NCBI RefSeq assembly: GCF_950295315.1
Contig: NC_080164.1
Location: 11,055,490-11,119,489, forward strand
Source of the DNA: Erinaceus europaeus
Taxonomy: Eukaryota; Chordata; Mammalia; Eulipotyphla; Erinaceidae
Direction: 5' to 3'
Length of the DNA stretch: 64,000 nucleotides
Below the pieces are notes generated by a model that saw only the letters and a list, made by a program, of their open reading frames with translations, ran no database searches and was not told the DNA's origin. This document shows, one piece after another, positions 1 to 61,405 of the stretch. The translations under genes and the position numbers were made by a program. The stretch's first letter is position 1. The number at the start of each line of letters is the position of its first letter.

Positions 1-1590
1 GTGTGATGCCTCCCATTTTATTCTTCTCAAGATTTTTTTAGGCAATTCTAGGTCTTTTCTGGTTCCAGATAAACATATACAGCATTTGTTCTATTCTCCT
101 AAAAATGTGTTTGGGATCTTGATGGGGATAACATTAAATTTATACATGGCTCTAGGGAGTATATTCATTTTGATGGTGTTAAATCTTCCAACCCATGAAC
201 ATGGAGTATCTTTCCACTTCTTTGTGACTTTTTCAATTTCCTTGAGTAGTGACTCATAATTTTCCATATACAAGTCTTTCACTTCTTTGGTTAGGTTTAT
301 TCTTAGATATTTTATTGTTTTTGTTGCTATAGTAAAAGGAATTGATTGCCGTATTTCAACTTCTTCTAACTTAGTGTTTTCATAGAGGAATGCCACTGAC
401 TTTTGAATGTTAATTTTGTAGCCTGACATCTTACTGTATTGCCTGATGATTCCCAAAATCTTCTTGCTGGATTCCTTAGGTTTTTCTGTGTATATTATCA
501 TGTCATCTGCAAATAGGGAGAGTCTGACTTCTTCTCTTCCAATCTGTATCCCTTTAATTCCTTGCTCCTGCCTGATTGCTATGGCAAGAACTTCCAATAC
601 TATTTTGAATAGTAATGGTGATAATGGGCATCCATGTCTAGTACCTGATCTGAGGGGAAACCCTTCCAGTTTTTCACCATTGAGTATGATGTTGGCTGTA
701 GGTTTGCTATATATAGATTCTACTATCTTCTGGAATTTTCCATCTATTCCTATTTTTTGTAGTGTTTTGATCCTGAAAGGATGTTGTATTTTGTCAAAGG
801 CTTTCTCTGCATTTATTTATATGACCATGTGGTTTTTGGTCTTGCTTTTATTGATGTGGTGGATCATGTTGATTGATTTGAAACCAAACTTGCATGCCTG
901 GGATAAATCCCACTTGGTCATGATGAACAATCTTTTTAGTACACTGCTGTATCCAGTTGGCTAGAGTTTTGTTCAGTATTTTAACATCTATGTTCATCAG
1001 AGTTACTGGTCTGTAGTTTTCTTTTTCGGCTGTGTCCCTGTCTCCTTTTGGTATCAGAGTGATGTTGGCTTTATAGAAGCTGGCAGGGAGTATTCCAGTG
1101 TCTTCAATCTTCTGGAAGACTTTTAAAAGTAGAGGTATTAGTTTTTCTTTGAAGGTTCTGTAGAATTTATTTGTAAAACCATTTGGTCCAGGACTTTTAT
1201 TCTTCGGAAGGTTTTTGATAACTGTTTCAATTTCATTAGCTGTGATGGGCCTGTTTGTGTTATCTAGTTCCTCTTTCCTTAATTTTGGAAGTTTGAAGGT
1301 ATCTAGGAAATTGTCCATTTCTTCCAGGTTCTCTAGCTTGGTGGAATATAGTTGTTCATAGAAGCCTCACATGATATGTTGGATTTCTGCAATGTCCATT
1401 GTGGTATCTCCTCTTTCATTTATGATCCTATTTATTTGGTTCTTCTCCCTTTTTGTTTTGTGAGTCTGGCTAAAGGTTTGTCAATTTTGTTCTCTCTTTT
1501 GAAGAACCAACATTTACTTTCATTGATCTTTTGTAAAATATATGGTCTTAATTGCACAGTCTCCTGTAGTGTTTCTTGTGAGTCTGGTGA
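1..1590 (-). pseudogene. LINE-1 ORF2 fragment (reverse transcriptase), decayed, open at window edge
   Basis: Minus-strand L1 ORF2. The upstream part (848-1318) reads NKSPGPNGF and [17 protein letters not shown], the fingers/palm region of L1 reverse transcriptase. The downstream part (91-597) carries the catalytic FADDMIIY motif followed by the thumb region. The two halves are in different frames: there is a shift near 890-905, and an in-frame stop where [13 protein letters not shown] is read near 815-825. The protein is therefore not functional. The endonuclease domain is absent; similarity fades near 1590, which I take as the 5' end of the copy. The 3' part of ORF2 lies to the left of the window. 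Confidence 0.93.
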
Positions 1591-2285: not shown

Positions 2286-2400
2286 TTTTTTTTAATTATT
2301 ATTAGAAATATAGGAGGAGAATGCCAAAGAACCGAATGTGCTGCTGGGAATTGAGGTTGGGACCTCATGTTCAAGAGTCCACTGCACCATGTCCAGGACT
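2286..2400 (-). mobile_element. SINE-C fragment, minus
   Basis: Starts with a poly(T) run, then 'gctgggaattgaggttgggacctcatg' and 'agtccactgcaccatg', the reverse complement of a tRNA-derived SINE head. No clear target-site duplication. Confidence 0.55.
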
Positions 2401-3399
2401 ACCAAAAGATTTTATCTTTCATTTTTGCAAAATTAGGTTATTTTAATGATGATTAGTTAAGATCACTTTCCCTTGCTCCCTAGTTTCTTCAATCACATCC
2501 TCTTGCCTTGTTGGAATAACTGCAGATATTTGGGGGGGGGCTAAGAGGAGGGGAAGGCCCCTCAAGACTGCAGTGAGTTTGTAGCTGACAGTCATATTTT
2601 TTCCAGAGGTCAGTTTTAGCTGACTGCCCAGTTATAAGCATGGATTCCAGGAATGCCCTGCCACTCCATTGAGATGATATGTATCATGTTGCCAGGAGGC
2701 TTCAAGGCCCACATCTGTCGCCCCCTTGTACACTTGGGGAGAAACTCACACCAGCACAAATGAGCTATCCTGCCCATTTCATTCTCGCCACTCCCTTGTA
2801 AATAATTGTACAAAGTTCTTGGCACATATTCCTCAACACATTGAGAACATCTACTGCCAAAATATGATTGGGCACTTGCTAATGGGTATAAATATTATGC
2901 GATCTTTTTTCCCTAGTCCTATGTTCTGAAAGTCATTTTCCAGTTTTTGTTGTTGTGGTTGTTGTTTTCACAGTATAATATACTCTGTCCTTACAAGCAA
3001 GTGGTTACTTTCATGCAAACAGGTGCTGTTGTAATCGCACTGTTTTCTAAAGCTGGGCTTCAAAGCTGTGCAATCTTCAGACCTCATTTAACCTGCTTTT
3101 CCCAAGATGGTACTCTTAACCAAAGAGGGAAATCCCACAAGTCACTTAGGCTTGCTTTCTTCTGTAAGTCATTCTTCCATTGTATGGACCTCTGTCTCAT
3201 GAGCAATAGAAAACATCGATCTTGGAAAGGTCACCTGGTACTGAGCTCAGGTGGCAAGGCCCAGAGCTGGGCAGCAAATAAGAGTGTGACTTTTGATCAT
3301 TCAGAGCAAGCCCTGTGTTTGCACAGAAAGAGACAAGGAATGTCCAGTGGGTAGATTAATATCAGGCAGAAGAAGCTATTTTTTTATGTGTGGTGCACA
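2401..3399. other. Unique sequence, nothing recognised
   Basis: No repeat family recognised. It includes a 9-bp G run near 2531. A 135-codon open frame at 2947-3354 has no recognisable domain and is probably chance. Confidence 0.35.
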
Positions 3400-4150: not shown

Positions 4151-5437
4151 CTTGTATGGCTCCTAACTTTGTGTGACTTAGTGGCAAGTCAAATGGAATC
4201 CCTTGACCTGGACATATACTGTCTTCAAGCCAGAGCTACTGGGAAGCTGACTAGTCAATCAATAAGACCTCCCTTCTCTCTTGTGAAAGGACTTCCTTCT
4301 CTCTGCGACTTGGAATCTGCTCTGTAGAAATGGGCATGCATGATCCTAGTAGACTGCTAATGGAATAGTCCATCATGCAGCCAGAGAGCTGTGAGAACAT
4401 GCACTAAGCAATTCAGAAGTTAAAGAAGTAATGTCAATAATGGCATTTACCTAAACTTTTGTAAGATCCTGCGAAAGATTAGCTGTGGGCTACTCATAAT
4501 ATTGGAGTCCTGTACATTTAAGGTCAGAGAGACTGGTAAGATGTAGATTTCTAAACGAATGCAGCCTAACTCATAGAGGCCAATTTGTTTGTCAGAACAA
4601 TTGAAAGAACAAACCACACAACCCCAAGCCAGCAGCAGACCCAGGAGACTGCATTCCCCTGCTGCCTGGGGACCCAGGTAGACTAGCTGTCCCTTGGCTG
4701 ATGAGAAGGCAGAAGGAAGGAATATTTTCTATTCCTTGCCTGTGGGCTGTTCATTAATCAACATCACTTTCCTCATTAGTATCTAGGCATCTCAGCTATT
4801 TTGAGGTGCTTCCAACAATTCATTTTCCCCTTCTGGTTATATAATCTTCATAATGAGGAGAGTAGTTGTGGTAGTGTTGTCTTTTTTTTTTCTAAGATAA
4901 ATATTAATTCTCCTTTCCATTTTTCATTTAAATTTCCCTCCAGTTGGGTTTGCCTTTTTCAATTTACACTGCTGAAACCCCATGGCCCAAAGACACACAA
5001 TTAACACTGTTTTCTTGGTGAGGGTCAGAATGTCTGCTTTGTAGGCTCATGTTTTTCTTAAGATAGCAGTTGAAGCTACAAGAGAAATGGAAATTAATTG
5101 GCAGAACTAGGACCATCTCCTCCTCATTGAGCTGAGACTATGTCATAAATCATCATTGTCTCTGTCCTCTCGTCGTCTCTGTGTTGGTCTAGGAAGGGGT
5201 TAGGGTTCCCAGGCTCAGAGGAGGAAGAAGCCAGGTGCTTTGCCTTGAGGGACTTTCAGAAAGGGCTTTGTTCTTCCCTGTTCCAGGATTATAAAATCAG
5301 TGACCACAGAACTGTCTTCTTCTTAACAAAATTAACAGTCTCCAGGTGTTCTCATCTAGGTGATAGATGGGCGGCTTGAAAAATATGCTTTAATGTTAGG
5401 ACAGGTGGACTGTGTTGGTCTTCCAAGCCTTCCGAAC
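4151..5437. other. Unique sequence, nothing recognised
   Basis: About 1.3 kb without a repeat or gene that I recognise. Confidence 0.35.
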
Positions 5438-5634
5438 TTCTCTCTCTCTCCCCTCATTCCCTTTCTCATGTTTTTTTCCACTCTGTTTACTTCCCCCCAT
5501 CTCCTCTCTTCATATCTCTCTTCTTCCCTTCCCTCCTTCCTTCTTTCCATCTTCCTTCCTTCCATCCTTCCTACCCTTCTTCTTTTCTTCCTTCCTGCTC
5601 TTCTTTTCCCCCCCTCCATCTATCCCTTCCATGT
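5438..5634. repeat. Polypyrimidine tract (CCTT/CTT-rich)
   Basis: About 200 bp almost purely C and T on the plus strand, mostly CCTT, CTT and TTCC units. Open frames on either strand across it (poly Ser/Leu/Pro, or Arg/Lys/Glu) are compositional. Confidence 0.85.
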
Positions 5635-5769
5635 TGAGTGTTTCTTGAACTACTGTATGCTGTCACTATATTAGATGTTGCAAATGTCATGGTGAAGAAG
5701 ACAAGGTCTGAAGGAAAAAATGTACATGAAAACAAACATCCCGAGGATAATCTGATGTGTAGCTGCACA

Positions 5770-5810
5770 AGAGAGAGAGAGATAGAGAGGGAGAGAGAGA
5801 GAGAGAGAGA

Positions 5811-5856
<46 letters not shown>

Positions 5857-5863
5857 GAGAGAG
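5770..5863. repeat. (GA)n microsatellite, interrupted
   Basis: Imperfect GA array of about 94 bp with GATA and GGGA interruptions; probably the remnant of a minus-strand SINE purine domain. Confidence 0.9.
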
Positions 5864-6029
5864 GAGACTTCTGAATACAAGGAGAATCAGGCTGGTGAAG
5901 ATAGGCCCTCTTTATGAAACCCTTCAGCACTGCTTATCTATACTACGTACTGAGGCTTTCTGTGTCTCCTGTGTGTTTATTTATGTGAGCTGTGTGTGTG
6001 ATTATGGGCTTTGATAGGTGAGATGAAAT

Positions 6030-6110
6030 ATCTCAGTGTTCCCCTTTTCTCATTTATAAAATAGAAAGAGAAACAACACCTCAGTGTAGTCATTCTGTGA
6101 GCTCAGAATT
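6030..6110 (+). mobile_element. MIR fragment
   Basis: 'tctcatttataaaatagaaagagaaacaacacctcagtgtagt' matches the MIR pattern of 'ctcatctgtaaaatgg' followed by 'acctacctcat'. Degenerate. Confidence 0.45.
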
Positions 6111-6382
6111 CTGACCTATCAATGCTTTTCAAGCCATGGATGGAATCACATAGACTCAGATATGAGACAATGTCATAGTGTTATCTCCTGAGTCTGGGAA
6201 CTTGGAAGACCTCTCTGAAAAGCCAAAGTGAGAAAGACTTGTAGTATAGGATTCTTCTGGGAGTTTGCGGATAGCCAGCTGTATATCTGTTCCAAAACTC
6301 CATCTGGAATCATTTCAGGTTCGTGGTGTGTAGCATAAGTTCCCTTTGAGTGGGTGAGGGGATCTAAGGCACAATGATGTTA

Positions 6383-6590
6383 GAGTTGGGTGGTGGTTCA
6401 CCTGGGACAACACACACATAACTATGTGCAAGAACCTGGGCTCAAGCCCCTGGTCACTACCTACAGGGGGGCAGATTCATGAGGTGAAATAGCAATGCAG
6501 GTGTCTCTTCTCTCTCTCTCTCTATCTATCTCCCCTCCCCTCTTAATTTCTCTCTGTCCTATCAAATCAGAAAATGTTGCAATGATTTAT
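6383..6590 (+). mobile_element. SINE-B, plus
   Basis: Head 'gggtggtggttcacctgg', B-box-like 'gggctcaagccc', core 'tgcaggtgtctct', then a CT-rich domain and 'ttctctctgtcctatcaaatc'. Confidence 0.75.
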
Positions 6591-6627
6591 TTGCAAGATC
6601 AGTGGCTCTAGTTTACATTTTTCATCT

Positions 6628-6785
6628 TTTCAAAAAGATCTTATTTTTATTTAATTGGATCAAGAGAAAGAGAGGGGTAGGGGAGAAACAGAGCATTGCT
6701 TTGGTACATGCCATGCTGGGCATGAAACTCAGCACCTCATGTTTGACAATCCAATGCCTTACCCCTGCAGCACCTCCCAGGCCAC
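6628..6785 (-). mobile_element. SINE-C-like element, minus
   Basis: AT-rich tail, 'caagagaaagagaggggtaggggag', then 'gctgggcatgaaactcagcacctcatg' and 'tgccttacccctgcagcacctccc', matching an inverted tRNA-derived SINE head. Confidence 0.6.
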
Positions 6786-6894
6786 ACATTTTTCTTATGT
6801 GCACTTGGAATCTTTCCACTTGGAGTCTAGCTTGGTTGGTGCACAGTACATACTTTCTCAATTATGAAGAGTGTCTTAGTGACAAGAGGGCTCA

Positions 6895-7080
6895 TGCCAA
6901 CAGAACCACATTTAAATTCCAAATCCACAATTTACTAGCTCTATAAAAACTTTTAACGGGTTGCTTCCTTTCTCTCAAGCTGAGTTCGTTCAACTCTAAA
7001 ATAGACATAATTACAAGAAGTTCTGTGACCACCAAATGCTCTTGGCAGACAATGAGTGTGTAGTAGGTATTAACTATGAG
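6895..7080 (+). mobile_element. MIR element
   Basis: Order of blocks matches MIR: 'aaattccaaatccacaatttactagctct', 'tcaactctaaaatagacataattac', then 'gtgtgtagtaggtattaactat'. Strongly diverged, as expected of this ancient SINE. Confidence 0.55.
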
Positions 7081-7264
7081 AGGCTAGCTGTCATATAGAT
7101 ACTAGCACATGTCAGCCAAGAATGGTGCCTGTAGCTTCTTTATCGTGTACAACAAAGACCCTTGCCACACTTTATCTTACCGGAGACATTGCTCAGTACA
7201 CTAATCCATATAGTGGTTACTTTTAAACTTCAATGGAATTGTCTCATTGGACACCATTTTCTAT

Positions 7265-7640
7265 TTAAATTTTTTCTTAGTGATTTGATAATAATTAACA
7301 AGATTGTAAGATAACAGGGGTACAATTCTTTATGGTTGCCCCCATCAGAGTTCCAAGTTCCATCCTCTCCATTGGAAACTTCCCTATTTCTTTATCCCTC
7401 TGGGGTAAAATTCTTTATGGGGTACAGAAGGTGAAAGGTCTAGCTTCTGTAATTGCTTCCCCACTGGGCATGGGCATTGGCAGGTGGATCCATACCCCTA
7501 GCCTGTTTCTTTCTTTTCCCTTGTCGGGTGGGCTCTGGAGACGTGAGACCTGGGACACATTGGTGATATTGTCTGACCAGGGAAGTCAGGATGGCATCAT
7601 AGTAATGTCTGCAACTTGTGTACAGCATCTTCTATTATCT
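7265..7640 (-). mobile_element. LINE-1 3' UTR fragment, minus
   Basis: 'attaacaagattgtaagataacaggggtacaattc', 'ccatcagagttccaagttccatcctctcc', and 'ggtctagcttctgtaattgcttccccactgggcatggg'. Ends near 'gtctgcaacttgtgtac', so 5'-truncated, directly beside a second copy. Confidence 0.8.
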
Positions 7641-7654
7641 TTTCCTTTCTTTTC

Positions 7655-8830
7655 TTTTTTTTTTCATTTATTTAATAATGATCGAGAAGACCATAGGATA
7701 AGAGGTGTACAGTCCCACACAATTTCCACCATCAGAGTTCCATATCCCATCCCCTTCCCTTGAAAGCTTTCCTATTCTTTATCCCTTTGGGATCATGGAC
7801 CCAGGGTCATTGTGGGATGCAGAAGGTGGAAGGTCTGGCTTCTGTAATTGCTTCCCCACTGAACATGGGAGTTGATAGGTTGGTCCATACTCCCAAGCTG
7901 TTTCTATTTTTACCTAGTGGAGTAGGGCTCTGGAAAGGAGTGGTTCCAGGGCACATTGGTGAGGTCATCATCCCAGGGAAGTTAGGTTGGCATCATGGGA
8001 GCATCTGCAACTTGACAGCTGAAAAAATTTAAGATATATATCAGAGTAAACTGTTTAATAATCATGAATCTAAAGGTAAGAATATAGCAGATGAGATGTG
8101 GGATCTCCATTTTGGTAAACACTATAAAGTCTATTTTAGGTACATTTCAAGGGGCCCATAACTTAGAAAATTTTTGTCTGATCCTGACACCCAACATGTA
8201 GGAGGGCTACAGGTATTGTCTGGGGAGATGGTGTCAGAGTTGGATGTAGGACTAGAAAATTCCATCAGGGAAGAAAGTTGTTCCAAAATATGGGACAATT
8301 ACATAAATACTGTCAATTTTAAATCCCATTAATCTGATCTGGGCCACATATTCAGCACAGGAGCGTATTTAACCTCTGCATTCATGTAGGTCTGAGCTTG
8401 CGTCCCATGGCCACAGCTGGGAACATTCTAGGCTGCACTCATTTCAGGACCCGTCTTCCTCAAGTGGCAGAGTATTTTGACCCATCCTCCCTTTAGATAG
8501 TGGGACAGTCCCACCAATGTTGTTCCCCATAGAGGGAAAGGTTCTGTAGTGGTCCATGATGTTGTTCCCCATAGAGGGCAAGGTTCTGTAGTGGTCCACA
8601 TGACAGTCCATGATGTTGTTCCTGATGGAGATGAACAGCAAATGTGGAGCGAGGGATCTCTTAGAGGTCTAGGCCCATCATATCTGCATGGGAATTCCAG
8701 GCTTCCCTGACTAGTGTCTCGGATGATGGGGTGGCCTGGTAGTGACCAAAAGAGCCACTATTAACATATACTGGTCTCTTGTCCTTATCTGGCTTTTGTA
8801 GGTTGACACCATGCTCTTATAATTACCTTG
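7655..8830 (-). mobile_element. LINE-1 3' UTR, long copy, minus
   Basis: A poly(T) run leads into the same L1 3' UTR blocks as the preceding copy. It continues much further upstream through 'gtctattttaggtacatttcaaggggcccat', 'gggaacattctaggctgcactcatttcagg' and beyond. The last motif recurs at 38100-38150, confirming that this is repeat and not unique DNA. The exact 5' limit is uncertain (8640-8830). Confidence 0.75.
8516..8630. repeat. Tandem duplication, 42-bp unit, about 2.5 copies, inside L1 3' UTR
   Basis: The block 'gttgttccccatagaggg' starts at 8519 and again at 8561, each followed by 'aaggttctgtagtggtcc'. A degraded third start ('gttgttcctgatgg') lies near 8614. Confidence 0.85.
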
Positions 8831-44770: not shown

Positions 44771-45014
44771 AAGCAGGAGATGAAAACAGGTTACCTAATA
44801 ATTGAACTGGATTGGTCAAGTGACAAAAATAAAACCATAAGGTTTTTTTTTTTTTGAAATTGCATACAACTCAGTTATGAATTAAGTTTATTGTATATTT
44901 CTGCCTAGCCTGGTTACTGTATAAGCACCAGGATGTAACATAATTTTTCTTCCCCCCTTCCCGCTTTGCAAGTATCTACAAGCTTGACACATTGCATGTG
45001 CCATTTAAGAAATA

Positions 45015-45150
45015 TATGTTTTTTTGATTTTTTAGTTTATGTATTTGTGGTCCCTTTTGTTGCCCTTGTTTTTTATTGTTGTAGTTAGTATGGCTGTTGT
45101 TGTTGTTGTTGATGTCATCATTGTTAGGACAGAGAGAAATGTAGAAAGTT
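45015..45150 (-). mobile_element. SINE-A 3' fragment, minus
   Basis: 'tgtggtcccttttgttgcccttgttttttattgttgtag', 'gttgatgtcatcattgttaggacagagagaaatg'; truncated at the start of the purine domain, followed by a T-run. Confidence 0.85.
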
Positions 45151-46469
45151 TTTTTTTTTTTTTTAGTTTTTTTCTATAGGAAAAGCATCATGATTTTTCT
45201 GACAAGCCAATATTTTTCAATTGTATAAACATGGGACTGAATGTTCATTGTCATTAAGAAACAAAAACATGGTGGTATGACTTGTTTCAGTTTCATCAGA
45301 TAGCTTTGCTATTTATAGGGTAATTTGGACTCTAAGACCAGTGGTGTTTCTCAGTCTGAATCATTGCATGTGCCTACATGCATCCTTTTGGATCCTCCAC
45401 ATGTCCCAGCTCAATGTTGCTGGAGTCGAAGGTGACTGAGGAGTACTGGCTCTCAGGCCTCTGCCAGAGCCAGTGGTCTCCCTGCAGGAAAATGGCTTTC
45501 CATATGGTCCGCCCAGCCAGGACAGCATTCCCCAGAAAACATGGTGAATCTCAGATCCCTGCAAAGCTCCAGCTTTGCTAGAAAGCAAATCATTTTTTTC
45601 TCCTAGGAGCTATCCAAGTCCCTCTTTTCAAAGGCTTTCTCTGTTTAATGTTCCTCCATCTGCCTGGTTCTCTGTCTTGGAACAATGCTTTATATGCAAA
45701 CTTTGCAGTTATGACAACATAAAAAGTCCTCAGAGAGGTGTTCTAAATGTTTCAGAAAAGAAGAAACCCAATAGCCCAGAATAAGAAATCTTTTCCTAAT
45801 GAGCAGGGACAAAAAGAAGGGAGAAGGATATCTCTGTTTTGACCATGTCTGCTCCAGGACTTTTCCCAACTGTTGGGAAAAAAACTTAAACTATACTTCA
45901 GGTCACTGCCTCACTTTTTCTTTATTGGGCCTGTGATTTGGAGCAGAAATACTGACCAGGCATGAGGGTGTCACTGAAGAGGAGTAGCGGGGCTGAGAAG
46001 GCTGGTGAAGCTGGGATCAATGTCGTCTCATTTATTAATTTTTGGCAAGCACCCACCAGGTGGAAGTTTCTGGGCATCAGCTGAATAAAGCTAACTCATA
46101 GGAGTAACCCGTCTCTCTGAAGGAATCCATGGCCTATCAAGGGGAAAGGGAAACATATCAGTTATCTGACACCAGCTGTCCAGTGTGCTGTCTTCTCAAG
46201 TTGCCTGGTGTGGTGGGAGCTCAACTCTGTGTGTGTGCTCCTCAGGCCAAGTCAAACTTCCAGAACACATCTGTCAACTTGGTGGGGCTGGTTCTTCAAA
46301 AGTTTATTTGTTGGAAGAGTGAGACCTTTTACAAGAGAGCTCATATAAGAGAGAATGCTGATGAGGAAATGAATGCAGGATAAGGTTGGTTCCGGTAAGA
46401 AAGTCTTACTCATGGCAGGGAGGATGAGTCTAGTGCAAACTGGTAACTGGTACTCAGCAGTGAATGGAG
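45151..46469. other. Unique sequence, nothing recognised
   Basis: About 1.3 kb with no recognised repeat or gene; CpG-poor (about four in the last kilobase by hand count). Confidence 0.35.
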
Positions 46470-46639
46470 GAGGGGGCAGGTGGTGGTGAACCTGGTTGAG
46501 TGTATATGTTATAATACACAGGCACCCAGGATCAAATCCCTGTGCCCACTTGCAGGGGAAAAGCTTTGTGAGTGGTAAAGCAGTGTTGTAAGTGTCTCTC
46601 TGTCTCTTTCCCTGTCAATTTCTGTCTCTATTTAATAAT
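46470..46639 (+). mobile_element. SINE-B, plus, tail interrupted by a non-LTR retrotransposon
   Basis: 'ggcaggtggtggtgaacctggttgagtgtatatg', 'aggatcaaatccctgtgcccacttgcaggggaaaagc', 'ttctgtctctatttaataat'. The usual continuation 'aataaataag' is found at 47615 on, after the insertion. Confidence 0.88.
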
Positions 46640-47617
46640 TCTTCTTCTTCTAGCATTTGCCCTTCTTCCGTAGCCAGTCAACAGCGTCAGGTTGAGCCTG
46701 ATGGAAAGTTTTGAGACCTCCTTTGAATCTGGAGAGGTGGCAGTCATTGACTATGTGGGTCATAGTCTGTCTGTAGCCACAGGGGCAGTTCGGGTTGTCT
46801 CTGGCTCCCCAGCGATGGAACATAGTGGCGCACCGGCCATGGCCTGTTTGATAGCGATTGAGGAGGGCCCAATCATAACGTGCTAGGTCAAAGCCGGGTT
46901 GACGCTTGCAGGGGTCTGTGATGAGGTGTTTGTTCTTTACCTCAGCTGACTGCCAACTCTGTTTTCAAGAGACTGGAACAGAGAAGTTCAGTGTAGGCGT
47001 AGGGGACCAGATTGGGTGACGAGACGTCAAGCATTGAACAGGGTGGGCGAAGATATCCGCGTATATTGGCAGGTCTGGTTGAGCGTAGACGTGGGAAATG
47101 AACTTAGATGATGCCGCATCCCGACGAATATCTGGTGGGGTGATGTTGCTAAGAACTGGCAGCCATGGAACCGGGGTGGAACGGATGGTTCCAGAAATTA
47201 TCCTCATGGAGGAATATAATTTGGAATCCATCAGGTGGACATGGGGGCTGCGGAACCATTCTGGGGCACAGTATTCTGCAGTGGAATAGCATAATGCCAG
47301 AGATGATGATCATAGTGTGGAAGCGCTCGCGCCCCATGAGGAGCTGGCCAGTCTTGCAATGATGTTATTCCTCGCGCCCACCTTTGCTGCAGTTTTTATG
47401 AGATGTTCATGAAATGACAGGGTGCGATCGAGAGTAACGCCAAGATAGACTGGCTGGGCTTCGTGCCGGATTCTCGTATCGCCAAGCTGCACATTAAGCT
47501 CACGCGAGGCCGAGGCATGGTGTAGATGGAAAACAGATGATACCGTTTTTGCAGTGCCAGGGATTAGTCGCCATTTTTACAGTAATCAGATATCAGATAT
47601 TTAATTAACTTAATAAT
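46630..47617. repeat. Target-site duplication around the non-LTR element
   Basis: 'atttaataat' at 46630-46639 and 'acttaataat' at 47608-47617 agree at 9 of 10 positions (last 8 identical). They bound the insertion inside the SINE-B tail. Confidence 0.6.
46640..47607 (-). pseudogene. Non-LTR retrotransposon polyprotein C-terminus (jockey/I-superfamily-like), CpG-rich, 5'-truncated
   Basis: On the minus strand, 47573 to the stop at 46650-46652 reads 307 codons in one frame without an indel. Only two internal stops interrupt it: TGA at 47310-47312 (likely an Arg CGA once) and TGA at 46965-46967 (likely Trp). Landmarks in order are YLGVTLDRTL (47418-47447), SSWGAS, YSTAEYCAPEW, RSTPVPWLPVLSNITPPDIRR (47121-47183) and a C-terminal CPCG-x6-H-x4-C zinc-knuckle-like motif (46740-46787). 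These belong to the region after the reverse-transcriptase palm in jockey/I-type elements and are not L1, L2 or CR1-like as I know them. The catalytic palm and endonuclease are missing. The stop runs straight into a GAA-repeat tail. About 41 CpGs lie in the coding part. The clade assignment is uncertain, and 47577-47607 is unassigned. Confidence 0.8.
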
Positions 47618-47630
47618 AAATAAGTTAATT

Positions 47631-47845
47631 GGAGGACAGGCATGGTGGATTACCTGGTTGAGCACACATGTTACAATGCATAAGGATCCAGGTTAGAGCC
47701 TCTGGTCCCCACCTGCAGGGGAAAAGCTTTGCAAATGGTGAAGCAGGGTTGCAGGTGTTCTCTGTCTCTCTCCCTTTTTATCATCCCCCCCTCGAGTTCT
47801 GACTGTTTCTATCCAATAGATAAAATAAAGATTTTAAAAAAGGAG
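47631..47845 (+). mobile_element. SINE-B, plus
   Basis: 'ggcatggtggattacctggttgagcacacatgttacaatgc', B box 'aggttagagcc', 'cacctgcaggggaaaagctttgcaaatggtgaagcagggttgcagg', tail 'tagataaaataaag'. Confidence 0.92.
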
Positions 47846-48297
47846 CGATTAGAGGGGAGGAAGTACAACGGGGCTAGATATTCTTCTTTCAAATTGTTGG
47901 TGTGTCTCTTTAACCAGCACAGTTCTCAGTCCCACTTACTGGTCCTGAGGTAGCATTCTCTGAGCTATATATTGGCAAGCCTAGGACTATTTACACTATG
48001 ACGATTGACAGGTGCTACTAATCCAGATTATTTTATCCCCTATCTCTGTTGAGTAACCACTTATCAGCATATGGAAATAATGCTACAAAACAAAATAAAA
48101 AAACAACACTATGAAAGAGAAGGAGATCTTTTCTCCTCTAAAGTCCAAGACCACAATATAGCTGAACATGGCAAAGTTTACAATTTAACAAAAGGTGTCC
48201 CTCAAAACAGTGCCTCTTGGAGTTTATAATGCATGCTAGCATATTAAAGAGTCTAAGGAATTTGTGCGAAGGAACCTGCTTTATTCTGTTTAATTTA
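47846..48297. other. Unique sequence, nothing recognised
   Basis: No repeat or gene recognised. Confidence 0.35.
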
Positions 48298-48455
48298 GAC
48301 CAGTGCCTCTCAGACTTGAATGTGTGAAGGAGTCACCTGAGCATGTTGATACCCTTCCAGTCTGAGGCAGGGTCTGTATTTCTATATTCTCCAAAGGCTG
48401 CCAAGCCATGCTGATCCTGCAGGTCTCAGGACCAATCTTTGAGAAACAAATATTT
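48298..48455 (+). mobile_element. MER5-type hAT non-autonomous DNA transposon relic
   Basis: Starts 'accagtgcctctcagacttgaatgtgtg', then 'gagtcacctgagcatg', 'ctgatcctgcaggtctcaggacca' and ends 'tctttgagaaacaaa', so the ends form a degenerate terminal inverted repeat as in MER5A. Confidence 0.75.
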
Positions 48456-48587
48456 AGAATCCTTCAGTTATATGAGCAAGAAACTTGCAGTTTGTAAATG
48501 TTTCTAGAACTTTGATCCTGGGAGCACGTTTTCAAATGTTGCTTCAGTGCATCATGATACGGGGATCAGGGAGGAGTGGTCTAGTTC

Positions 48588-48790
48588 TGGTGGGGGCTGG
48601 TGAGGTCATTCAGACCTAGAGCACAGGCTCATGTTTCTGGTTTCAATCCCCAATTCCCAGCACTGCATGGGAGCAGCAAAGAGAAAGGACTTTCTGAATG
48701 GCAGAGTAACACTTTAGCTTCACTCTCCATTTCTCTACATCACTTTCTCTCTTACCCATTCTAGATAAAAAAAATAAAAATAAAAAAATG
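48588..48790 (+). mobile_element. SINE, plus, diverged
   Basis: 'gggggctggtgaggtcattcagacctagagcac', 'ggtttcaatccccaattcccagcactgcatgggagc', 'tctccatttctctacatc', A/T tail. Confidence 0.65.
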
Positions 48791-48798
48791 AAAGAAAC

Positions 48799-49165
48799 AA
48801 GGGCTTGGGCGGTAGCACAGCAGGTTAAGTGCATGTGGCGCAAAGCATAAGGACTGCCTTAAGGACCTTGGTTTCAGTCCCCAACTCCCCATCTGCAGGG
48901 GAGTTGCTTAACAAGTGGTGAAGCAGGTCTGCAGGTGTCTATCTTTATCTCCCCCTCTCTGTCTCCCATCCTCTCTCCATTTCTCTCTGTCCTATCCAAC
49001 AACAACAACAATTATCAGTGGCAAAAATAACTATAAAGGCAACAACAAGGGCAACAAAATGTGAAAAAAATGGCCTCCAGGAGCAGTGGATTCCTAGTGC
49101 AGGCACCGAGCCCCAGCAATAACCCTGGAGGAAAAAAATAAAATAAAAATTTAAAAAAATAAGGA
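48799..49165 (+). mobile_element. SINE-A, plus, with extended 3' domain
   Basis: 'gcttgggcggtagcacagcaggttaagtgcatgtggcgcaaag', 'ctgcaggggagttgcttaacaagtggtgaagcaggtctgcagg', AAC linker, then 'ggcctccaggagcagtggattcctagtgcaggcaccgagccccagcaataaccctggagg' and A/T tail. Confidence 0.93.
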
Positions 49166-50652
49166 AATAAAACATGGTCAGAGATGTCACAGTTTCTCCA
49201 AATGCAGGGTGGGGCCAAGCCATGAGATCCATAGAAACAAGAGGTTTTCTTGAGGAGACCACAGTTTTCAGTGGGTGAGACATTGAAACTTAGTAGAACA
49301 TGCTCCCAAGACAGGGTTGGAGCTGGGTTTCCTACAGGTGACAGACTTGCCCATCAGCACAGGGAAGTCAGTACATGAGAAGCTTCTAGCAAGACTCAGC
49401 GGTAGTAGTGCACAACAGGGGCCTGGATTTTACATCATGGAGATGCTGAATCAAGGAGCCTCATAGTAGATATTACGGTATGTATCATTGAGGTGTGTCC
49501 ACAGGCGGGTACAGACTGGCCAAAGTCAATGTTATATATTAGAAGCAATTTGGGATCCTTTCTCAGAGAGGTGTCAAGTTTTTGCTGGAAAGGATGGCTA
49601 GAAATCAATTAACTCGAGGTAGACCAGATGTCAGGAAGATGTACAGGTAGTGCATTCCAACTGAAACATTCAGAGAAGATAAGGCAGTGGTAGGGTAGTG
49701 GGGCCTTTGATTTCTGTCTAAATTTTTCTTCTGCCTTGTTCCTCCCTTGTATAGAAAGCCAGGCAGATGTTGTTCATGGTGCAGAGATGTTTCACATCTT
49801 CCTGAAGGCCAGGAGTAGAAACTAATGGCAAGTGCCCCTGGGGAAGGGCTTAGGAGGAGAAATGGTTTTCTTAGAAATAAACTTTCCAAAAGAAATTACC
49901 TGACGGAGCAGGGGACTGGATTGTTTTTAATGATTTGACAACTCAGTTTGGCCTTATTGCTGTACATCAAATGATATTTCAGAGGGAGGCTCAATGATAT
50001 AATAAAAGTGGAGACTGTAGACGGATTTCCACTGGTGTCACAGGAACATATTATACTCCAAGCCTGACAGGTCAGGAACCAGCTGGGAGATGTCCACCAG
50101 CCCAGGCAGGGGCTGCAAGCCAATTCAGTGATGAAGGAGTGGAAGGAGGTGACTGGGGGTGGCATGCATCCTCTGCTCTCCTTTCTAGTCTCACAAGTGA
50201 CTCCACTCCTCAGGTAAAGACATCCACTCCCTTTACCTAGAGGCTCCAATCCCACTCTGCCCAAGTTTTGGTCTATGTACATGTATGCTTCTCTCTGCTG
50301 CAAATGCTGATCTTGGCAAAGAAGAAAGCCTTGTTTTATGCCATAAAAAGTCAGACACCTGTTATGATAGTTCATATTTCAAAAACATGATCCCCATCAC
50401 ATTTTCTATCAATCTCACAGGTACATCTGACTATCCCAGAGTTACAGAAAAGTTGCGGGAAGAGAGGAGACCATGAAGGCCCCTTGGGAAAGCATTTTCC
50501 TGCTCTTCTGCTGCAGCACAACCTTTCCTGTTCAGCTCCAACACTGCCAGGGTCCAGCCTCAGACACGTGGATCTATCAGTTCATCCTGCAAACCCAGAC
50601 TTTTTCTTTTAGAAGATATATGTCATCAGTGAGGTAGTGAGAAAAAAGATAT
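49166..50652. other. Unique sequence, nothing recognised
   Basis: About 1.5 kb. A 159-codon minus-strand frame (49896-50375) has Cys/Trp-rich stretches but no domain I can name and no splice or promoter context. Confidence 0.3.
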
Positions 50653-60315: not shown

Positions 60316-60762
60316 AAAGGCTTCTTATTATAATATCTGAACTGGTTGGATCCACATCAAAATTATGGGTCCTCCACCTGGTCTGCTTCAGGCTCTGCTA
60401 AGCTGGCGTTTTCTCAAATCCCCTCCCACCTATGAATTCATCTTAACCACCACCCAGACCTTACATTTCAACCCTCTTTCTCACTGAATGTTGATTTTCA
60501 GAACGTGAACACCCATTATAGTCACTAATTTCCAAAATGGCAGTTTGCGCCTTCTTGAAGTAGTGAAGGAAGGAAACTTTCCAAGTCTTTAAACCCAAGC
60601 AGTTAGAAAACAGAGATGACTTGGAAAGGACTCTTTGTGATGAGTCATTTTGTTCACAGCTCTCCTTATCCTTTCAGAAGACTCCACCAATGCTGGACTG
60701 TCTGCTGGTAACTTCACCACTTCCAACTTTCAGAGAAGTCACGGCTATACTTCACAGGTGTT
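60316..60762. other. Unique sequence, nothing recognised
   Basis: No repeat or gene recognised. Confidence 0.35.
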
Positions 60763-61082
60763 AATGCTCCTAGGGTTTTAGATAAAGAGTCTGCCAAGGA
60801 ATGGCACTGAGAAGGTGGGGTAGGAGTAAATGCCATTAGTCTAGTGCTCCTAGGGTTTTAGAGAAAGAGTCTGCCAAGGAATGGAACTGAGAAGGTGGGG
60901 TAGGAGTAAATGCCATTAGTCTAATGCTCCTAGGGTTTTAGAGAAAGAGTCTGCCAAGGAATGGAACTTAGAAGGTGGGGTAGGAGTACATGCCATTAGT
61001 CTAGTGCTCCTAGGGTTTTAGAGAAAGAGTCTGCCAAGGAATGGAACTTAGGAGGTGGGGTAGGAGTAAATGCCATTAGTCT
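60763..61082. repeat. Minisatellite, 4 copies of an 80-bp unit
   Basis: 'tgctcctagggttttaga' starts at 60765, 60845, 60925 and 61005, an exact 80-bp period. Each unit continues 'aaagagtctgccaaggaatgg' and 'gaaggtggggtaggagta' and ends 'tgccattagtct'. Copies differ at only a few bases each, and no indels are seen. Confidence 0.98.
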
Positions 61083-61224: not shown

Positions 61225-61405
61225 GTGACTCACTCACTGAATGGACACATTACCATGTGCAAGGACTTAGGTTCAAGTTTTTGGTCCCCACCTACAGGGA
61301 GGTAGCTTCATAAGTGGTGAAGCAGTGCTGCAGGTGTTTTTCTTTCTCTGTTCCTCTCTATACCCTCCTAATTTCTCTCAGTCTTATCAAATAAGTATTT
61401 TTTCA
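61225..61405 (+). mobile_element. SINE-B, plus
   Basis: 'gactcactcactgaatggacacattaccatgtgcaagg', B-box-like 'aggttcaagtttttgg', 'cacctacagggaggtagcttcataagtggtgaagcagtgctgcagg'. Confidence 0.8.

Follow-up and report, generated by a model that had tools for sequence, protein, structure and literature searches.

A young Vingi-type LINE of the hedgehog genome and its short derivatives begin with a predicted HDV-like ribozyme

Among the described systems closest to the one considered here are the L1Tc/ingi elements of trypanosomes, which carry a 5'-terminal HDV-like ribozyme of demonstrated activity, according to the portions of the source that were available (PMC4035085). The same portions present NARTc, RIME and SIDER of trypanosomatids as short derivatives that keep the 5' hallmark (PMC4035085). 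An HDV-like ribozyme is also found in mammalian genomes, that of CPEB3, as stated in the accessible part of PMC8256844.

The stretch of DNA analysed here (the window) covers 64 kb of the genome of the hedgehog Erinaceus europaeus and contains part of a LINE that almost certainly represents hedgehog Vingi, an assignment based on the reported features of the family and on its description in citing papers. Kojima, Kapitonov and Jurka are said to have described Vingi from hedgehogs in 2011, in Mol Biol Evol 28:17 (Vingi-1_EE / Vingi-1_AAl); they reportedly characterised it as the sister of Ingi, without RNase H and with internally deleted derivatives, and reportedly noted both its recent expansion in a mammal and its absence from other mammal lineages. 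In the available text of PMC3183009, hedgehog Vingi transposable elements are placed among likely mammalian horizontal transfers, and Vingi-1N3_EE among the families that are less than 1% diverged in the hedgehog. Excerpts from other papers record Vingi traces in human (PMC5753468), one pre-amniote Vingi fossil in human (PMC9004415), Vingi-2_Acar in Anolis (PMC3747384) and 860 Vingi copies in Anolis (PMC7561263); the traces in human imply that the clade was once present in mammalian ancestors. The accessible part of a 2025 Atelerix study counts 4,476 I-Jockey copies, which may be of the same family as the window element. Since both the Vingi family and the proposal of its horizontal transfer are already published, the headline of a sequence-only reading of the window, horizontal acquisition in the hedgehog lineage, is not new. 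Because the LINE is a known family it is ordinary as a report of foreign DNA; its 5' end is not.

The window copy lies on the minus strand at 46637..47597 and comprises the last ~961 of the ~3,085 bp of a Vingi-like element. BLAST aligns 46638-47597 at 96.6% identity with positions 2301-3261 of a stretch (4701-7965) that contains the genomic copy L021, and detects no further copy of the LINE in the 64-kb window at an E-value of 1 or better. What survives of the single ORF (46650..47576, minus strand) is the portion past the reverse-transcriptase core together with the C-terminal CxC...H...C region, and all four motifs that had been picked out by the sequence-only reading (YLGVTLDRTL, YSTAEYCAPEW, WLPVLSNITPPD and CPCG...H...C) are indeed present in one minus-strand frame. 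This remnant is interrupted by two in-frame TGA stops, lacks one A near the 5' end of the frame, as judged by eye against L021, and terminates in a TAG at 46650-46652; no Pfam family was found in this C-terminal piece. The 3' tail AAGAAGAAGAA (46639..46649, minus strand) follows immediately after the TAG, so that the window copy has almost no 3' UTR, and two extra T are present beyond the tail at 46637-46638. Flanking the element is an 8-bp target-site duplication, TATTTAAT, with one copy on the 5' side (47598..47605) and one on the 3' side (46629..46636); the location proposed earlier is thereby retained, while its bounds of 46640-47607 are replaced by 46637-47597. The insertion target was the AT-rich tail of a plus-strand SINE at 46460..46628 (bounds approximate), which we take, by eye, to be of tRNA type, and the insertion would have occurred by target-primed reverse transcription. 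A second SINE copy, belonging to repeat family D5, lies on the plus strand just past the insertion (47629..47835, bounds approximate), and D5 is found in the window at 47666-47759 and 61245-61338.

With 41 CpG in 960 bp, an observed/expected ratio of 0.68, the element stands well apart from the other 64 window bins of 960 bp, which have a mean of 5.6, a maximum of 16 and a mean observed/expected ratio of 0.13. The CpG richness noticed earlier is thus borne out, but the step from it to recent arrival is weak: high CpG is a sign of recent copying, and that would be seen under vertical persistence as well. Its sequence marks the window feature as the dead remains of a young LINE copy, truncated at the 5' end, and it is without the ribozyme-bearing 5' end discussed below; Rfam returned 0 matches in the window at gathering cut-offs. 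Another genomic copy, L019, has the identical 5' truncation point (47597 in the window copy) in different flanks, which may reflect microhomology or chance. Elsewhere in the window, two minus-strand ORFs at 91-1318 resemble L1 ORF2 remnants by eye, and a tandem array with 80-bp spacing occupies 60682-61081, represented by four overlapping 160-nt copies, two of them at 96% and one at 61% to the reference. A tandem-repeat scan of 45000-50000 found none.

Genome-wide searches were made in the 2.72-Gb assembly G000, with the 40 best-scoring matches scored in each search, so the divergences given here are those of the youngest or most complete copies. Against a 951-bp piece of the element, each of the 40 scored matches, the window's own among them, is at 96-100% identity. 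Allowing 3 mismatches, a 38-mer from the 3' end matches 38,207 places and a 31-mer from the 5' end (bases 4-34) matches 10,152, the reversed-pattern control giving 0 in each case. The 20 copies fetched vary in the extent of 5' truncation and share with the window copy (21/21) a common 3' end, GGGCAAA(C/T)(G/A)CTAGAAGAAGAA..., while the junctions of 20 copies all have differing flanks. An exact duplication of at least 8 bp borders 12 of 20 copies (L021 excluded, the window copy included), with 5-7 bp in a further 7 and none in 1; duplications of at least 8 bp occur in only 2 of 380 mismatched flank pairs. The number of 3'-end places and the differing flanks of the 20 copies point to genomic insertion, and contamination or an assembly artefact is ruled out by the many copies, their different flanks and their target-site duplications. 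The 20 top-scoring copies diverge pairwise by 2.5% on average, or by 1.2% when CpG-prone columns are left out; from the column majority the window copy differs at 26 positions, 16 of them in CpG-prone columns.

The complete element is represented by L021 (4877-7965), which is full-length or nearly so. It is ~3.1 kb long and consists of a 91-nt 5' leader and one ORF of ~990 codons, the protein starting with MDPSHF at nt 92 and the stop codon being set in the (GAA)n tail. In the 750 aa of the L021 protein that were read, Pfam identifies RVT_1 (PF00078, 1.7e-34) and, also above the cut-off, Exo_endo_phos_2 (PF14529) and Exo_endo_phos (PF03372), indicating an apurinic-type endonuclease. No RNase H family appears in the scans of this piece or of the window C-terminal piece; since the former has endonuclease and reverse transcriptase only and the latter is unmatched, there is no sign of RNase H. 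The 5' start is tightly defined in the top-scoring set: 20 of the 39 other scored copies share the starting position of L021, and none of the 39 lies outside -9 to +4 of it. Twenty 5'-end loci were fetched, L029, which is the same genomic copy as L021, being counted once. Thirteen show collinearity with the element throughout the ~1,924 nt read, 4 carry an inverted piece and 3 have internal deletions. Six of the 13 collinear loci have no interruption of the frame in the 613 codons read, and L021 itself has a stop codon further along. The inverted segments (L032, L034, L035 and L039; 4 of 20 loci) are of the twin-priming type, here in a non-L1 LINE.

At the protein level the top matches are metagenome proteins, which cover most of the query at 50-61% identity. 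The named relatives are eel, turtle, coelacanth and arthropod proteins, among the best 120 of 408 matches for the window piece and the best 120 of 2,516 for the L021 protein. A Vingi-like protein on an ENA contig (P0121) is 95% identical and probably represents host DNA, from the same species or a close relative; the same probably applies to P0241, an L1 protein, 94% identical, on an ENA contig. P0241 comes from the best 120 of 5,847 matches of an L1 ORF2 piece, in which the named proteins are mammalian, none of them from a hedgehog, with the exception of one fungal record (P0289). Apart from P0121, the best E-value among the best 120 of 2,516 matches of the L021 protein is 1.3e-208 (P0122), the highest identity among the best 120 of 408 for the window piece is that of P0107 (65% identical over 53% of the query), a value that no other protein in either list exceeds, and P0124 is 61% identical over 551 columns in an alignment of 146 rows. 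Solved L1 ORF2 and R2 proteins, by comparison, match at about 1e-11, the best L1 ORF2 reaching 9.3e-12 over 183 residues. Set against other proteins at up to 1.3e-208, this rules out an L1 identity, and the earlier description of a young mammalian LINE not of the usual kind agrees with these values; derivation from a known mammalian LINE, named in advance as an outcome that would overturn that description, was not what the L1 comparison found.

A tree was built from 59 of the 146 aligned rows, the metagenome rows being chosen by hand and the root placed at the midpoint. A branch with support 99* separates the window family, together with the eel, turtle and coelacanth proteins, from the 13 arthropod rows; the arthropod grouping itself has support 55, and a fish protein (P0184, Muraenolepis) joins the arthropods' side on a very long branch. 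The statement that elements of this kind are typical of invertebrates and fish is not upheld by this grouping, and an invertebrate origin is unsupported, the 13 arthropod rows being split from the window family by the 99* branch under the midpoint root.

It is at the 5' end that the family shows something not found described in the open-licence literature. The full-length copies (~3.1 kb) and derivatives of ~195 bp begin with the same 70 nt, and these have the topology of an HDV-like ribozyme with helices P1-P4. In copy L030 the segments read, in order, GGGATGC, ATT, GGATCG, ACC, TTCCCGT, GGT and GCATCCC (nt 1-36), followed by GTGAGTA, CCC, ATTCATT, GGG, GAAACTGA and CGATCC (nt 37-70). The proposed helices are P1 (1-7/30-36), P2 (11-16/65-70), P3 (17-19/27-29) and P4 (44-46/54-56), and CUGA is located in J4/2, immediately before the 3' strand of P2. 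Read along the sequence, the order is P1-P2-P3-P3'-P1'-P4-P2', a nested double pseudoknot in which P1 stands at the predicted cut site; cleavage would then fall immediately ahead of base 1, where the element itself begins. The C of CUGA would, from its position in J4/2, be the catalytic C.

A strict ribozyme descriptor, composed after the sequence had been seen, was run on both strands of the 332 kb of fetched DNA; its only hits fall at base 1, in 15 of the 20 5'-end loci. Random sequence gives a background of ~0.3-1.5 per Mb, with 4 hits in 12 Mb resembling the element and 30 in 20 Mb resembling the genome; 2.0 Mb of order-1 sequence gives 0. All 19 pairs are kept in 14 of 21 aligned 5' ends, and the J4/2 C in 20 of 21, the copy that has lost it being L021 (L029). 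In the 361 cells of the 19 distinct rows there are 15 substitutions to G-U and 8 disrupted pairs. Taken as a whole, these features make an HDV-like self-cleaving ribozyme the most likely fold of the first 70 nt.

The short derivatives carry the same 5' end into a SINE-like format. L049 (G000:C1:87610-87830, 1-221, minus strand) is a 195-bp element in which positions 2-130 of the LINE are joined to 3015-3082, that is, to its last 68 nt plus tail, and it is flanked by copies of a target-site duplication of ~10 bp, as identified by eye. A gapped pattern built on this layout and requiring 23 exact letters has 3,849 matches genome-wide; 91 of 100 listed matches are 142, 145 or 146 long, which suggests that lineages have been amplified rather than that each deletion arose independently. 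A plausible mechanism is that the predicted ribozyme trims read-through transcripts at base 1, which would give each RNA, those of the ~195-bp derivatives included, a correct 5' end for the next round, the short derivatives probably being mobilised in trans. Reading together the parts of the element, the start shared by copies at the 5' end, the flanking duplications, the internally deleted copies and the putative ribozyme topology, each of them legible in the DNA, we regard it as likely that this is a young Vingi-type element inserted by target priming into a SINE tail, whose 5' 70 nt would act as an HDV-like ribozyme setting the 5' ends of its RNA. The wider proposition, that ~10,000 HDV-like ribozymes head a recent mammalian LINE and its ~195-bp derivatives and that predicted self-cleavage, not a promoter, defines the 5' end, is one we favour with somewhat less assurance.

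Several results run against the ribozyme. Rfam gave no ribozyme match up to E 10 in 11 of the 20 5'-end loci, and among the 19 distinct rows, whose copies are very alike, 0 pairs have changed on both sides. In a shuffle control, all 500 shuffled sets match the real rows in pairing and 461 of them attain the same covariation score, so that the control lends the ribozyme pairing no support. When partners are slid, 33-46% are paired as against 97.8% in the proposed structure, which favours the structure, yet any structure derived from these same sequences would be expected to show this. ViennaRNA, which cannot score pseudoknots, finds an alternative fold at -28.4 kcal/mol compared with -17.3 kcal/mol for P1+P3+P4. 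For P1.1, the L3 sequence UUCCCGU and GUGAGUA allow at most one convincing C-G pair by eye, and J4/2 is longer than usual. The strand after P1' is 7 nt long, as against a J1/4 of 0-2 nt given for R2 in the available text of PMC3774820. The pattern containing the J4/2 C is found in 5,696 copies genome-wide and the C-to-T change at this position in 41, which leaves no large subfamily without the C; a tolerated C-to-T change in P2 is found in 39 copies and one outside the ribozyme in 77, and by this comparison there is no clear constraint on the J4/2 C. A search for DNA of relatives found nothing in viral contigs and, in genome contigs, one stretch, 30% identical, from a bacterial MAG. These observations leave some room for the alternative that the 5' 70 nt are an internal promoter or a protein-binding or translation structure, the common start being a fixed transcription start site. 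The nested fold without pseudoknots is the more stable in ViennaRNA, the shuffles do not help the ribozyme, and the trypanosome equivalent, Pr77, combines promoter and ribozyme functions in the portions of PMC4035085 that were available. However, a promoter would require none of the ribozyme-like features seen here, neither the four helices nor the 7-nt L3 nor the CNRA strand beside P2', which nevertheless coincide with base 1, against a descriptor background of only ~0.3-1.5 per Mb of random sequence, and we consider this explanation improbable.

As to how the family came to be in the hedgehog, recent horizontal transfer into its lineage from a non-mammalian animal falls a little short of an even chance in our estimation. 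The copies are young (mean divergence 1.2% outside CpG-prone columns in the 20 top-scoring copies) and transfer has been published as likely for hedgehog Vingi in the part of PMC3183009 available, but the measured copies are biased towards young ones and no near-identical donor emerged, the best candidates listed besides P0121 being P0107 (65% over 53%) and P0124 (61% over 551 columns). The occurrence of Vingi in reptiles and its traces in human, in the partial texts cited above, also make vertical persistence possible. An ancient mammalian Vingi, inherited vertically, lost elsewhere and recently re-amplified in hedgehogs, would fit the grouping of the family with named vertebrate relatives in the tree and the fossils described in human in the available parts of PMC5753468 and PMC9004415. 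Vertical inheritance requires loss in the other mammal lineages, where Vingi is reportedly absent, and we hold it to be doubtful, less probable than transfer. That a known mammalian LINE (L1, L2, CR1 or RTE) has been misread as foreign, or that the element is a contaminant, is hardly credible: the L1-like ORFs at 91-1318, L1 by eye, do place such sequence within the window, but when L1 was compared directly the solved ORF2 gave only 9.3e-12 over 183 residues against 1.3e-208 for P0122, and a contaminant would not occur thousands of times, in differing flanks and bordered by target-site duplications.

Compared with what is reported of the Vingi clade, the window family likewise encodes an endonuclease and a reverse transcriptase with no RNase H found, likewise has internally deleted non-autonomous derivatives and likewise has expanded recently in a mammal; it differs in that a 5' ribozyme is predicted here and none was found in print for Vingi in the open-licence literature. 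Within that literature, which lacks most subscription journals, we found no report of an HDV-like ribozyme in Vingi or in Erinaceus, so that the claim is new as far as open-licence literature goes, its novelty not being proven. We know of no earlier HDV-like ribozyme heading a mammalian LINE together with its own short derivatives. If the 5' end does cut itself, this would be the first such case known to us in a mammalian LINE and would link Vingi mechanistically to the L1Tc/ingi elements of trypanosomes, and the ~3.1-kb element with its ~195-bp dependent would offer a compact natural system for the spread of a ribozyme in a mammal.

The likeness to the trypanosome elements lies in an HDV-like ribozyme at the very 5' end, with its cut where the element begins, only predicted in the window family, and in short, internally deleted copies that keep the 5' end as do NARTc, RIME and SIDER; in contrast, L1Tc encodes an RNase H and has protist hosts, according to the portions of PMC4035085 available, whereas the window family has a mammal host and no RNase H was found in it. 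R2 and the window family have in common an HDV-like ribozyme, here predicted, at the 5' end of a LINE, and from the accessible text of PMC3774820 the resemblance extends to a P1 of 6-7 bp, a P2 of at least 5 bp, a variable P4 and a conserved catalytic C, although J1/4 is longer in the predicted Vingi ribozyme. R2 is site-specific for 28S rDNA, whereas the window family is dispersed. Finally, the CPEB3 ribozyme resides in an intron of one gene, while the hedgehog family carries thousands of predicted copies inside a retrotransposon.
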